A DNA stretch of 64,000 nucleotides, taken from positions 1 to 64,000 of the forward strand of contig NZ_MAPV01000037.1 in NCBI RefSeq assembly GCF_001700505.1, given 5' to 3'. Below, piece after piece: positions 46,646 through 51,181 of the stretch; within the stretch, counting starts at the first letter, position 1; each line of letters starts with the position of its first letter. The position numbers and the translations under genes were made by a program. The notes beneath the pieces are model-generated. The model made no database searches. It saw only the letters and a list, made by a program, of their open reading frames with translations, and had not been told where the DNA came from. Source of the stretch: Streptomyces mutomycini (GTDB lineage: Bacteria > Actinomycetota > Actinomycetes > Streptomycetales > Streptomycetaceae).

Positions 46646-47740
46646 TCAGACCTCCTTCGGGGCGGCGGCGGCGCGGGCGGCGGCGACCGCGGGGTGGACG
46701 GGCGCGTCCGGCACTCCGGCCGGGCGCAGGCGGGCGAACTCCTTGCGCAGCACGGGCACGACCTCCTCGCCCAGGATGTCGAGCTGCTCCAGGACCGTCT
46801 TCAGCGGCAGTCCCGCGTGGTCCATCAGGAACAGCTGACGCTGGTAGTCGCCCACGTCCTCGCGGAAGGACAGGGTCCGCTCGATGACCTCCTGCGGAGA
46901 GCCGACGGTCAGTGGGGTCTGCTGGGTGAAGTCCTCCAGCGAGGGCCCGTGGCCGTAGACCGGCGCGTTGTCGAAGTACGGGCGGAACTCCCTTACCGCG
47001 TCCTGGGAGTTCCTGGCCATGAACACCTGGCCGCCGAGGCCGACGACGGCCTGCTCGGCGGTGCCGTGCCCGTAGTGGGCGTAACGGCGCCGGTAGAGGT
47101 CGACCATCTTCCTGGTGTGCTCCATGGGCCAGAAGATGTTGTTGTGGAAGAACCCGTCGCCGTAGTAGGCGGCCTGCTCGGCGATCTCCGGGGAGCGGAT
47201 GGAGCCGTGCCAGACGAACGGCGGGACGCCGTCCAGCGGGCGGGGGGTCGCGGTGAAGGACTGCAGCGGGGTGCGGAACTTCCCCTCCCAGTCGACGACG
47301 TCCTCGCGCCACAGCTTGTGCAGCAGCGCGTAGTTCTCGATCGCGAGCGGGATGCCCTGGCGGATGTCCTTGCCGAACCAGGGGTAGACCGGCCCGGTGT
47401 TGCCGCGGCCCATCATCAGGTCGACGCGGCCGTCGGCCAGGTGCTGGAGCGTGGCGTAGTCCTCGGCGATCTTCACCGGGTCGTTGGTGGTGATCAGCGT
47501 GGTGGAGGTGGAGAGGATCAGTTTCTCGGTGCGGGCGGCGATGTAGCCGAGCGTGGTCGTCGGCGAGGACGGGACGAACGGCGGGTTGTGGTGCTCACCG
47601 GTCGCGAAGACGTCGAGGCCCACTTCCTCCGCCTTGAGCGCGATCGCGAGGGTCGCCTTGATCCGCTCGTTCTCGCTCGGTGTCGTACCGGTCGTGGGGT
47701 CGGTGGTGACGTCCCCGACCGTGAAGATCCCGAACTGCAT
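46646..47740 (-). CDS. LLM-class flavin-dependent oxidoreductase (CE1758-type)
   Basis: This 364-residue TIM-barrel monooxygenase of the luciferase-like family uses reduced FMN from its operon partner. Characteristic segments are LDVFATGEHHNPPFVPSSP near residue 45, STSTTLITTNDPVKIAEDYATLQHLADGRV and LMMGRGNTGPVYPWFG. The substrate is unknown. ATG 47740 has GGAGG 9-10 bases upstream. Its promoter carries tandem GTTCAAC repeats matching the pirin promoter, which suggests control by the same redox or electrophile-sensing repressor. Confidence 0.87.
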   Translation of the reverse strand: MQFGIFTVGDVTTDPTTGTTPSENERIKATLAIALKAEEVGLDVFATGEHHNPPFVPSSPTTTLGYIAARTEKLILSTSTTLITTNDPVKIAEDYATLQHLADGRVDLMMGRGNTGPVYPWFGKDIRQGIPLAIENYALLHKLWREDVVDWEGKFRTPLQSFTATPRPLDGVPPFVWHGSIRSPEIAEQAAYYGDGFFHNNIFWPMEHTRKMVDLYRRRYAHYGHGTAEQAVVGLGGQVFMARNSQDAVREFRPYFDNAPVYGHGPSLEDFTQQTPLTVGSPQEVIERTLSFREDVGDYQRQLFLMDHAGLPLKTVLEQLDILGEEVVPVLRKEFARLRPAGVPDAPVHPAVAAARAAAAPKEV

Positions 47741-47749
47741 GGCGCCCGC

Positions 47750-47776
47750 CTCCGTGATTTTGGTTGAACGTTGAAC
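47750..47776 (-). promoter_or_regulatory. tandem GTTCAAC operator plus AT-rich -10 of LLM operon
   Basis: On the minus strand GTTCAAC-GTTCAAC (47776-47763) is followed directly by CAAAATC, the probable -10 region. Order and spacing match the pirin promoter at 26907. Confidence 0.55.
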
Positions 47777-47846
47777 TATGTGAACACACCCTACAACGGA
47801 GCACCCCCCTTCCCTATTCCGCCCGCTCCGCAGGATCGGTGCGCGT

Positions 47847-47852
47847 TACACT
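47847..47852 (+). promoter_or_regulatory. -10 box TACACT of trpS leader
   Basis: TACACT ends 7 bases before the leader-peptide ATG 47860, so the leader peptide itself is probably translated from a leaderless message. Confidence 0.55.
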
Positions 47853-47859
47853 CGCTGCC

Positions 47860-47901
47860 ATGACCTCCGTACCGTGCCGGACCTGGTGGCGCTCCTTTTA
47901 G
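47860..47901 (+). CDS. Trp-Trp leader peptide of trpS attenuator
   Basis: This 13-codon peptide MTSVPCRTWWRSF ends in TAG. Two adjacent Trp codons (47884-47889) lie at the base of the first hairpin arm. Ribosome stalling there, when charged tRNA-Trp is scarce, should change the RNA fold and allow trpS transcription. It is too short to be called as a normal gene; position, Trp doublet and overlapping hairpins support it. Confidence 0.75.
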   Translation: MTSVPCRTWWRSF

Positions 47902-47956
47902 GAGCGGCCACCTTCATCTGCACGGAACCAGGGCCGTTCGATCTTCGGACGGCCCT
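47885..47956 (+). promoter_or_regulatory. transcription attenuator of trpS
   Basis: Four segments can pair exclusively. Segment 1 (47885-47895) pairs with segment 2 (47901-47912, one bulge). Segment 2 bases 47902-47909 pair with segment 3 bases 47932-47939 (8 bp, one G-U). Segment 3 (47930-47940) pairs with segment 4 (47946-47956, 11 bp with one G-U) as the terminator. The Trp codons lie in segment 1, so stalling favours the 2-3 antiterminator. Confidence 0.7.
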
Positions 47957-48021
47957 CATCTGTGCCCCGGTGCTCCGCGACGGGCCGTCCTCCACGCATA
48001 CACCTCAGCGAGGAGACCCCC

Positions 48022-49080
48022 GTGACCCTGACCACCGGCCTGCCCGTCGGTCCCGCCGCGCGCCGCAGCGCCGAACTGGAGCAGCAGCTCGCCCTGGACC
48101 CGGGCCGCTTCCGCGTCCTCACCGGGGACCGGCCCACCGGGGCCCTGCACCTCGGGCACTACTTCGGCACCCTCCACAACCGGGTGCGCCTGCAGGACCT
48201 CGGCGTGGACGTCTTCGTGCTCATCGCCGACTACCAGGTCCTCACCGACCGGGACGTCGCCGAGCGCCTCACCGAACACGTGGAGGGGCTGCTCCTGGAC
48301 TACCTCGCCATCGGGATCGACCCCGCCCGTACGACGGTCTTCAACCACAGCGCGGTCCCCGCGCTCAACCAGCTGCTGCTGCCCTTCCTGTCCCTCGTCT
48401 CCGTCGCCGAACTGGGCCGCAACCCCACCGTGAAGGACGAGATCGCCCACTCCCGGCAGTCCGCCGTCAGCGGGCTCATGTACACCTACCCGGTGCACCA
48501 GGCCGCCGACATCCTGTTCTGCAAGGGCAACCTCGTGCCCGTCGGCCAGGACCAGCTGCCGCACCTTGAGGTCACCCGCACCGTCGCCCGGCGCTTCAAC
48601 GAGCGGTACGGCGACGTCTTCCCCGAACCCGACGCGCTGCTCTCCGCCGCGCCCCTGCTGCTCGGCACGGACGCCACCAAGATGAGCAAGAGCCGCGGCA
48701 ACTCCATCGCCCTGGGTGCCGACGCCGACGAGACCGCCCGGCTGATCAAGGGCGCCACCACCGACGCCGAGCGGCACATCACCTACGACCCCGGGCTGCG
48801 GCCCGGGGTGTCCAGCCTGGTGCTGCTGGCCGCGCTCTGCCTCGGCCGCGACCCGTACGAGGTCGCCGAGGAGATCGGGAACAGCGGTGCGGCCGGTCTG
48901 AAACGGACCGTGACGGAGGCGGTCAACGCCGCGATGGCCCCGATCCGCGCCAGGCGCGCGGAGTTGGCCCAGGACATGGGATACGTACGTGACGTGCTGC
49001 GCGCCGGCAACGAGCGGGCGAACGCCGTGGCCGAGGCGACCCTTCAGGAGGTGCGGGAAGCCATGGGGATGTTCAGCTAG
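48022..49080 (+). CDS. trpS: tryptophanyl-tRNA synthetase, probable auxiliary type
   Basis: This class I enzyme charges tRNA-Trp. The 352-residue protein has GDRPTGALHLGHYFGTLHN (HIGH-type, near residue 40), LIADYQVLTDRDV, GQDQLPHLEVTR and TKMSKSRGNSIALG (KMSKS, near 215). The ADYQVLTD segment differs from the common DQHAIT form and recalls the auxiliary, indolmycin-tolerant TrpRS of streptomycetes, which is also controlled by attenuation. Which of the organism's TrpRS copies this is cannot be settled here. GTG 48022 has GAGGAG 7 bases upstream. The attenuator precedes it. Confidence 0.9.
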   Translation: MTLTTGLPVGPAARRSAELEQQLALDPGRFRVLTGDRPTGALHLGHYFGTLHNRVRLQDLGVDVFVLIADYQVLTDRDVAERLTEHVEGLLLDYLAIGIDPARTTVFNHSAVPALNQLLLPFLSLVSVAELGRNPTVKDEIAHSRQSAVSGLMYTYPVHQAADILFCKGNLVPVGQDQLPHLEVTRTVARRFNERYGDVFPEPDALLSAAPLLLGTDATKMSKSRGNSIALGADADETARLIKGATTDAERHITYDPGLRPGVSSLVLLAALCLGRDPYEVAEEIGNSGAAGLKRTVTEAVNAAMAPIRARRAELAQDMGYVRDVLRAGNERANAVAEATLQEVREAMGMFS

Positions 49081-49108
49081 CGGCACGGGCCGGTGACGCG
49101 CACCGCGG

Positions 49109-49151
49109 CCCCGGCCCGCAGTACGCACCGCGCCCCCGGCCCGCAGTACGC
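49109..49151. repeat. 18-bp direct repeat downstream of trpS
   Basis: CCCCGGCCCGCAGTACGC occurs at 49109-49126 and 49134-49151. It lies between convergent genes, and no clear hairpin terminator is visible, so it may be a small local duplication. Confidence 0.5.
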
Positions 49152-49168
49152 GCGCCACGCGCCGTGGC

Positions 49169-51181
49169 TCAGTGGTGGGCCGCCGACCGCTGCCTGCGCA
49201 GCAGCTCCGCCAGGCCGCGCCGGGTCGCGGCGATCACCACCCGGTCGTCCCGCCGCAGCACATACCCCGGGTGAAGGTCCCAGACCAGCCCGGAGGGCCG
49301 GTCCGGGGTTCCCGGCCCCTCGGGGTCGAGGGGGTCGTACGGCGGTGCGGCGGCCAGGTCCGGGAGGCGGTCGCCCGGCGGTGTGGCGTCCAGGGCCAGG
49401 ACCCGCCACGCGCCCGCCCGGAAGGCCTGGTCGACGGTCCGTCCCTCCAGCTGGGGGTGCCCCGCCACCTCCAGGGCCGCGAAGAGCATCACCTTGCGCT
49501 CCACCGGGACCGCGCCCAGGATCTGCCGGCCCATCATGGCGACCGCGAACGCCGGTGCCGCCAGATGGGACACGGAACGGGAGCGGGTCAGGGCGTCCGG
49601 GTGGGCCGTGCGCAGGGTGCGGTAGACGGCGGTGGCGAATTCGTCGTCGTAGAGGCGCAGCGCCACCCGCAGGTCGGGCTTCACCGAGCGGGCGTACAGC
49701 GCGGCTTCGAGGTTCGTCGTGTCGATGCTCGTCAGGGCGAGCAGTGCCCGGGCACGGCGGATCTTGGCCGCTTCCAGGACGCCCTCCTGGGTCACGTCGC
49801 CCAGGACCGTCGGCACGTGCAGACTGCGTGCCAGCGGGATGCCGCGGGCCTCCGGGTCCTCCTCGACGACCACCACGGGGATGTCCAGCTCGCGGAGCCG
49901 CACCAGGACCCTGGTGCCGATCTTGCCGAGCCCCAGCAGGACCACGTGGCCGGACAGGCCGCGCGGCGGGCGGCGCAGCGAGGAGGCGGTGCGCAGCGTG
50001 CCGAACGCCTCCAGGACGGCGGCGACCAGCAGGGGCAGCAGCAGGAGTCCGGCCAGGCCGGACAGCAGCTGGATGACCTGGCGGGAATCCGAGTCGGTGT
50101 CCTCGACCGCCGGGTCGCCCATCGCCAGCAGGTCCAGCATGGTCAGGTAGGCGGCGTGCAGCGGGCTGTCGCCCGTGGTGATCACCGAGGCGACGGCCAG
50201 GGCGACGACGGCGGCCGCGACGCCCAGCGCCGACCAGCGCAGCCGCCGCGAGAAGACCTGGCCGAGCGGTGCTCCCCTGCCTCCCATGCGGGTGGGCGCC
50301 CGGTCGGGCCCGGCCTGGCTGATGGCCTCCAGGACGACCGTGCCCCGGCCCGTGGCGGCGTTCACGGTCGCCAGGTCGGGCAGGAGCTGGGGGCCCTCGT
50401 CGCCACTGCTGTCCGAGCCCTCGGTGCCGGCCGGGTCCTGGCTGGTGGAGGAGAGCAGAGCCAGGGTGCACAGCCCGGGGTCGGCGAGTTCGCCGGGCCG
50501 GGGCGGGGTGCGTTCGACGGCGCGCAGGAGCAGGCCCTCGGCCTGGATGACCTTGCTGCTGCCGGTCAGCGCGGTGGCGGCCAGGGCGGGGGCCGCGGTG
50601 TCGGCGTCGGACAGGACGGTGGTGGAGGCGTCCGTCGCGGCGGCGTCGAGACCGGGCATGGAGACGGCGGCCGCCTGGTCGAGCAGCGTCTCCAGGTGCT
50701 GTCCGAGCTTGCGGTTGTAGAGCCGGATGACGAGGCGCAGGCGCGGATTGAGACGGCGGGCCGTCAGGGCGGCACGGATGTTGAGCTCGTCGTCGTCGTA
50801 GACGAGCGCGAGCGCGGCGGCCCGGTCGACGCCCGCCTCCGCCAGTACGTCGTCGGAGGGCTCGCGGGCCTCCATGATGCGGACGGCCTCGACCCCGGCG
50901 TTCGTGTCGCCGTCACCGCCCCCGTTGCCCGCCCCGTTGCGGCTCATCGCCGCCGACATCCGGCCGAACAGGGCCCCGGCCCGCGCGCGTTGGGTCAGCG
51001 GCAGGTCGGGCTCGGTGGTGCCGGGGCCCGGTGGGACCAGGAGGGTGACCCGCTCCCCGTACACGTAGCGCAGTTCCACTGCGAGCCGGCGGGCGAGGGT
51101 GTCGTCGCCGCAGACCACCATGTGACCGTTGCTCGGGGGACGTTGGGGCTGTTGAGGAAGTGATGACACGTAACTCAGCAT
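49169..51181 (-). CDS. dual-RCK (TrkA-N) membrane protein without K+ filter
   Basis: This 670-residue protein has a first NAD-binding RCK domain (about 18-210; HMVVCGDDTLARRLAVEL), two membrane helices (about 320-345 and 380-405) and a second RCK domain (about 415-560; HVVLLGLGKIGTRVLVRLREL). The pore-like loop reads YLTMLDLLAMGDPAVED, with no TVGYGD selectivity filter. This may be a non-potassium channel of the CASTOR/POLLUX-like type or a membrane nucleotide sensor. ATG 51181 has GGAAGGAG upstream and lies 17 bases after the ATPase stop; it is the last gene of the four-gene operon. Confidence 0.8.
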   Translation of the reverse strand: MLSYVSSLPQQPQRPPSNGHMVVCGDDTLARRLAVELRYVYGERVTLLVPPGPGTTEPDLPLTQRARAGALFGRMSAAMSRNGAGNGGGDGDTNAGVEAVRIMEAREPSDDVLAEAGVDRAAALALVYDDDELNIRAALTARRLNPRLRLVIRLYNRKLGQHLETLLDQAAAVSMPGLDAAATDASTTVLSDADTAAPALAATALTGSSKVIQAEGLLLRAVERTPPRPGELADPGLCTLALLSSTSQDPAGTEGSDSSGDEGPQLLPDLATVNAATGRGTVVLEAISQAGPDRAPTRMGGRGAPLGQVFSRRLRWSALGVAAAVVALAVASVITTGDSPLHAAYLTMLDLLAMGDPAVEDTDSDSRQVIQLLSGLAGLLLLPLLVAAVLEAFGTLRTASSLRRPPRGLSGHVVLLGLGKIGTRVLVRLRELDIPVVVVEEDPEARGIPLARSLHVPTVLGDVTQEGVLEAAKIRRARALLALTSIDTTNLEAALYARSVKPDLRVALRLYDDEFATAVYRTLRTAHPDALTRSRSVSHLAAPAFAVAMMGRQILGAVPVERKVMLFAALEVAGHPQLEGRTVDQAFRAGAWRVLALDATPPGDRLPDLAAAPPYDPLDPEGPGTPDRPSGLVWDLHPGYVLRRDDRVVIAATRRGLAELLRRQRSAAHH

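Follow-up and report, generated by a model that had tools for sequence, protein, structure and literature searches.

The trpS gene of Streptomyces mutomycini that is considered here, a gene for an auxiliary tryptophanyl-tRNA synthetase (TrpRS), is preceded by a short ORF with two adjacent Trp codons and by hairpins that compete with each other. An earlier note on this DNA had described the arrangement as a complete ribosome-mediated attenuator. The locus raises the question of whether trpS is really controlled in this way, and whether the leader peptide is translated from a transcript that begins with its own start codon. From the comparisons reported below, we regard it as very probable that the element controls the auxiliary TrpRS by ribosome-mediated attenuation of transcription and that its leader peptide is leaderless. 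Anatomy, conservation, covariation, and stall geometry all support this reading.

All features lie on the forward strand of the window, i.e. the whole stretch of 64,000 nt that was analyzed. On inspection, every element that had been listed upstream of trpS was present at its place. The leader ORF (47860-47901) comprises 13 codons and a TAG stop codon at 47899-47901 (ATG ACC TCC GTA CCG TGC CGG ACC TGG TGG CGC TCC TTT TAG) and encodes the peptide MTSVPCRTWWRSF. The tandem Trp codons 9 and 10 (TGG TGG, 47884-47889) are the predicted stall site and lie within segment 1, as trp-type attenuators require of their control codons. Segment 1 (47885-47896) and segment 2 (47900-47912) are the two arms of the 1-2 hairpin, which has 11 bp plus a closing U-A pair, one bulged G, and a folding energy of -20.3 kcal/mol. 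Nucleotides 47902-47909 of segment 2, the 5' arm of the antiterminator, can pair with 47932-47939 of segment 3 (47930-47940), resulting in a 2-3 helix of 8 bp including one G-U (-12.0 kcal/mol). Segment 3 as a whole pairs with segment 4 (47946-47956), the 3' arm of the terminator hairpin, and this 3-4 helix has 11 bp, also with one G-U (-20.5 kcal/mol). An additional outer stem, P0, which the earlier note did not contain, encloses the 1-2 hairpin. Its 5' strand CCGTGC (47872-47877) covers leader codons 5-6, and its 3' strand GCACGG (47920-47925) is located between segments 2 and 3. The -10 box TACACT (47847-47852) is separated by 7 nt from the leader ATG at 47860, in agreement with the previous description. 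The leader ORF has no Shine-Dalgarno (SD) motif, whereas trpS, which starts with GTG, encodes 352 aa (48022-49080), and begins 120 nt after the leader ORF, is preceded by GAGGAG (48010-48015). The attenuator region folded far more stably than expected from 200 dinucleotide shuffles (z = -6.1), none of which was as stable. A scan of 47000-49500 against Rfam yielded no family at its gathering score and chance matches only.

Relatives of the leader element were found at about 100 loci in Streptomyces, Streptosporangiales, Pseudonocardiales, and Microlunatus. Close relatives of the protein were present at 80 loci of genome contigs and in 36 of 199 Streptomyces genomes, and the host taxa included Streptomyces, Embleya, Peterkaempfera, genera of the Streptosporangiales, Saccharopolyspora, Kutzneria, Allokutzneria, and Microlunatus. 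Nearly all loci have a 13-codon leader that ends with WWRS or a near variant. The length of 13 codons is kept in 99/103 relatives, and 96 of these 99 leaders have the tandem Trp. In the other three (L004, L019, and L087), the first Trp codon is changed from TGG to CGG, yielding Arg-Trp, with all helices intact. Three loci in another family of the order (L153, L155, and L156) carry single-Trp leaders of the type VRSFxCASWRPS with GTG start codons, and the TrpRS encoded downstream is 66-68% identical (confirmed for L153 and L155). The existence of both kinds of variant means that the tandem Trp is not strictly required. At E ≤ 0.001, 80/392 genomes of the order gave a match to a covariance model of the element, R1; a few of these matches appear to be tRNA artefacts. 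The matches at L159, L161, L162, and L163 were discarded as attenuators and were read, judged from the sequence, as 3' ends of tRNAs followed by hairpins.

Several loci deviate from the common pattern. Three of them (L104, L106, and L109) encode this type of TrpRS but lack the attenuator element. In Streptomyces sp. NBC_01016, an element with an IS4/IS5-type transposase (Pfam DUF4096, DDE_Tnp_1; L039:1942-2990) is inserted exactly between attenuator segments 1 and 2 and is accompanied by a CTTA-like target duplication; this natural disruption of the attenuator might render trpS constitutive. In Streptomyces sp. ERV7, the trpS locus is duplicated (L077 and L079, separated by about 8 kb), and each copy has an enlarged leader of 20 codons. 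One further locus (L146, G186:C15:95685-95787), near a contig end, has the attenuator hairpins without an ATG or GTG at the usual start and with no trpS gene seen adjoining, and it may be a decayed copy.

The helices were examined in an alignment of 48 divergent sequences, A1. For P0, 1-2, and 3-4 together, 95.4% of the cells were paired, and 9 pairs were changed on both sides. None of 500 shuffles of the alignment matched the real one on any measure, and slid controls were paired to only 31-61%. The terminator helix 3-4 was the best paired of these (96.4%), and in the competing antiterminator 2-3 97.9% of the cells were paired. Compensatory changes also occurred in the antiterminator: pair 44-90 changed from A-U to G-C both where segment 1 has CCUC in place of CUCC and, separately, in Microlunatus, and in both Embleya loci A-U replaces G-C at pair 48-86. 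The mutually exclusive 2-3 and 3-4 helices are thus both preserved by compensatory change, and folding and covariation together confirm the three alternative helices as they had been proposed. In P0, 5 of the 6 pairs were changed on both sides, with 94.8% of the cells paired. Because the helices covary in the relatives, and because the window element was the sole match of the covariance model in its own genome (E = 5e-19), it is not a chance arrangement.

Cys 6 and the WWRS motif are also strongly conserved at the amino acid level. Conserved residues of the form Cys-x-x-Trp-Trp-Arg-Ser could belong to a peptide that, in the manner of TnaC, arrests the ribosome upon binding of a ligand such as Trp, and the leader would then not be a sensor of tRNA charging. 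However, the Cys codon is part of P0, which explains its near invariance; it is replaced by a Gly codon in Embleya, and in L060 the partner strand of P0 is altered as well. The Arg and Ser codons are, in turn, part of segment 1, and the leaders of another TrpRS class (see below) have the same length and architecture, but their peptide, xTTRTCTQLWWAA, is a different one. Pairing accounts for the conservation of the codons, and therefore we rejected peptide arrest, which we consider extremely improbable, in favor of a ribosome that responds to the charging of tRNA-Trp.

For the start of the leader transcript, the position of the -10 box is informative. In 82 of 82 non-redundant loci, a TAnnnT motif was found 6 or 7 nt before the leader start, whereas its background frequency is 0.0003 per site; an SD-like motif preceded the leader in 3 of these 82 loci. 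The initial choice of start codons had favored candidates with TAnnnT, and therefore a second count was made without start selection, using all ATG or GTG ORFs of 11-16 codons with WW on both strands of 665 kb of loci. In this count, TAnnnT ended 6 or 7 nt upstream in 99/102 ORFs, compared with 134 of all 10,524 ATGs (1.3%) in the same 665 kb. The window shows the configuration of a leaderless attenuator, with the start codon 5-7 nt downstream of a -10 box and no SD motif. The distance matches S. lividans, in which the -10 box lies on average 6.3 nt from the transcript start, also for leaderless genes, defined by a 5' UTR of 0-3 nt (PMC8079986). Hence, we predict a transcript start at about 47859-47860, at the leader ATG; as the gap is 7 nt in the window and 6 nt in most relatives, a 5' UTR of one nucleotide is possible. 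No -35 box was recognized by eye upstream of TACACT. An in-frame GTG at 47839 would allow a leader of 20 codons, and translation could accordingly begin there, or at the ATG with the help of upstream sequence, on a transcript with a normal 5' UTR from a promoter further upstream. This GTG is not conserved among the relatives, however, TAnnnT always stays 6-7 nt from the start although the sequence upstream varies, and SD-like motifs are missing in 79/82 relatives, which makes such a transcript very unlikely. The comparison supports the leaderless start that had been suggested for the leader. Peptide length, Trp codons, stop codon position, and the three helices with their compensatory changes are all preserved together with the TAnnnT spacing, and therefore ribosome-mediated attenuation with a leaderless leader is very likely.

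The earlier note had seen the unusual point of the element in the absence of a 5' UTR. This was not borne out: RNA-seq mapping of transcript starts in S. lividans has shown that the leaders of trpS (trpL2), trpE (trpL1), leuS and leuA (leuL1 and leuL2), and ilvB (ilvL) are all leaderless (PMC8079986), and leaderless attenuators are described for mycobacteria in the account given in PMC9094748. The genome of the window itself contains a trpE leader, MFAQTTRNWWWTAHPAAR (L167:1589, C154), with TAGGGT 6 nt before its ATG, and this leader is probably leaderless too; the trpE locus L112 has no WW leader. The S. lividans leaders and the trpE leader together indicate that the leaderless architecture is the rule for Streptomyces Trp leaders and no oddity. 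Upstream of the other trpS gene of the genome (L002, C381), GACAAT is found 6 nt from the ATG, and the mRNA of this gene may be leaderless as well.

How the switch would operate can be deduced from these elements. RNA polymerase would start at or beside the leader ATG, and the ribosome would load directly onto the 5'-terminal AUG. When charged tRNA-Trp is scarce, upon Trp starvation or in the presence of a TrpRS inhibitor, the ribosome would stall at codons 9-10 and cover segment 1, segment 2 would be free to pair with segment 3, and trpS would be transcribed. When tRNA-Trp is charged, the ribosome would proceed to the TAG in the 1-2 loop and cover segment 2, the 3-4 hairpin would form, and transcription would stop. 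The logic of stalling and release is that of E. coli trp. E. coli trpL shares the tandem Trp codons in segment 1, the stop codon between segments 1 and 2, the 2-3 antiterminator, and the 3-4 terminator, but it differs in having a 5' UTR with an SD motif before trpL and a strong U-run. If no ribosome is loaded, P0 and 1-2 would close over the leader, and 3-4 would form by default. P0 may close as soon as nt 66 emerges, which would hinder loading on the 5' AUG and lead to default termination under poor initiation, and we infer that P0 functions as a gate on ribosome loading. In C. glutamicum, where the ilvBNC leader is leaderless, the first hairpin has been suggested to act in a comparable way (PMC11857589).

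Folds of partial transcripts with assumed ribosome edges were in accord with this scheme. When the RNA was free from nt 38 or 41, as with a ribosome halted at either of the two Trp codons, the minimum before segment 4 had been made was the 2-3 helix. When it was free from nt 53, with the ribosome at the stop codon, only the 3-4 helix could form. A stall at Cys 6, with the RNA free from nt 28, allowed the 1-2 hairpin to re-form, so that control would be specific to the Trp codons. With these assumed edges, a ribosome at the control codons frees segment 2, and a ribosome at the stop codon masks it.

The terminator of the window has a hairpin but no U-run. Segment 4 is followed by CATCTGTG, and in place of a T-run the hairpin is followed by CCCTCATCTGTG, a feature that also goes beyond the earlier note. 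The designation as a complete attenuator is therefore slightly overstated for the terminator. Intrinsic termination may, for the same reason, be weak or factor-assisted. The stall switch could thus work as described while the 3-4 hairpin acts via Rho or another factor, or lowers the translation of trpS; S. lividans trpL2 likewise has no uridine-rich stretch (PMC8079986), and folding hints at weak pairing near the SD motif of trpS. On the other hand, most relatives have a T-rich tail (in 86/102, at least 3 of the 7 nt that follow the last GGCC are T), the 3-4 hairpin ends more than 50 nt upstream of the trpS SD motif, and 3-4 is the helix that pairs best in the alignment. We therefore consider a non-intrinsic mode of action rather unlikely. 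In the window, 47920-47926, which includes the 3' strand of P0, can alternatively pair with 47959-47965 and extend the terminator stem. In this species, and likewise in L004, which is most closely related to it, sequence capable of this pairing stands in place of the U-run.

The product of trpS is a tryptophan--tRNA ligase (TIGR00233 above cut-off; Pfam tRNA-synt_1b), one of two TrpRS of the genome, which are 34-35% identical to each other. Its best PDB matches are the TrpRS II entries of Deinococcus (D. radiodurans). One S. griseus genome contained only two TrpRS, one housekeeping-like and the other 88% identical to the window enzyme and preceded by a WWRS leader, and the window enzyme falls into the sequence clade of the latter. 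According to the summary in PMC6804068 of Vecchione and Sello 2009, S. griseus NBRC 13350 has SGR_2702 and SGR_3809, and the latter is indolmycin-resistant. By elimination, the window trpS is probably of the SGR_3809 type, an assignment that the earlier note did not make, and the enzyme is probably inhibitor-resistant as well. No published account of an attenuator at SGR_3809 was found in a search that covered literature other than Vecchione and Sello 2009/2010, and that this attenuator is conserved may already have been reported.

The earlier note had compared the locus with an auxiliary TrpRS of S. coelicolor. Attenuation of that gene, trpRS1, has indeed been reported (Vecchione and Sello 2010, as cited in PMC4787780), but S. 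coelicolor appears to have a TrpRS of another class, here called type ii, with 35% identity to the window enzyme (type iii). The window trpS is not a member of type ii, and a type-ii gene was absent from the window's own genome. Type ii occurred in 198/296 Streptomyces genomes. Its leader, xTTRTCTQLWWAA, resembles the published leader of S. lividans; the exact S. lividans leader had no match in the 393 sampled genomes, so it is assigned to type ii by the similarity of its peptide, MMTRTCTQLWRAA, to MMTRTCTQLWWAA in L174. TAnnnT was located 6-7 nt before the start in 28/28 type-ii loci, and P0, 1-2, and 3-4, which are laid out as in the window, were paired in 99% of the cells. R1 also matched weakly ahead of type-ii TrpRS in two genomes, and it aligned end to end with type-ii elements (best E = 6.5e-7, most 1e-5 to 1e-2). 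Type ii was present in 4 of 36 genomes with type iii versus 128 of 163 without it (Fisher P = 3e-14, a value that ignores relatedness), and three of the four genomes with both types are those with the attenuator-less loci L104, L106, and L109. The leaderless architecture is common to both classes, which are seldom found together in one genome. The likeness of their attenuators may reflect common descent or convergence. Tentatively, and with some doubt, one can imagine a single leaderless module common to two non-orthologous TrpRS classes that seldom co-occur, gated by the covarying stem P0, in which codons 5-6 pair with the RNA that separates segment 2 from segment 3, so that ribosome loading on the 5' AUG would be a second input, and in which the enzyme was swapped under a retained switch.

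The attenuator is not novel in kind, as such elements are known in Streptomyces and other actinobacteria. Corynebacterial attenuators are reportedly leaderless. The closest described systems are S. coelicolor trpRS1 and S. lividans trpL2-trpS (Droste et al. 2021, PMC8079986), which share with the window the auxiliary TrpRS and a 13-codon Trp leader; S. lividans trpL2 also shares the competing hairpins, the poor U-tract, and the leaderless start, there mapped by RNA-seq, but its peptide has one Trp and its hairpin sequences differ. Upstream of trpS2 in S. avermitilis and of trpE in Streptomyces trp operons, classical Trp attenuators like that of the window were predicted by Seliverstov et al. 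2005 (PMC1262725); their study is a prediction with one trpS genome and is silent on leaderless starts. Mycobacterial leaderless cysteine attenuators (Canestrari et al. 2020, as cited in PMC9094748) have a leader peptide on a leaderless transcript, and corynebacterial ones (Neshat et al. 2014, as cited in PMC8079986) an attenuating leader peptide, as does the window, but according to these sources both involve other amino acids and genes. The S. griseus TrpRS SGR_3809, assigned by elimination, is probably the same type of gene as the window trpS. Taken together, the findings add the auxiliary TrpRS of the S. griseus type, as it occurs in several orders of actinobacteria, to a known and experimentally supported scheme. 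The roughly 100 natural variants, among them leaders with one Trp and a locus in which a transposon splits segment 1 from segment 2, make two aspects testable: the interplay of leaderless initiation versus leader folding, and the switching-on of a self-resistance synthetase.
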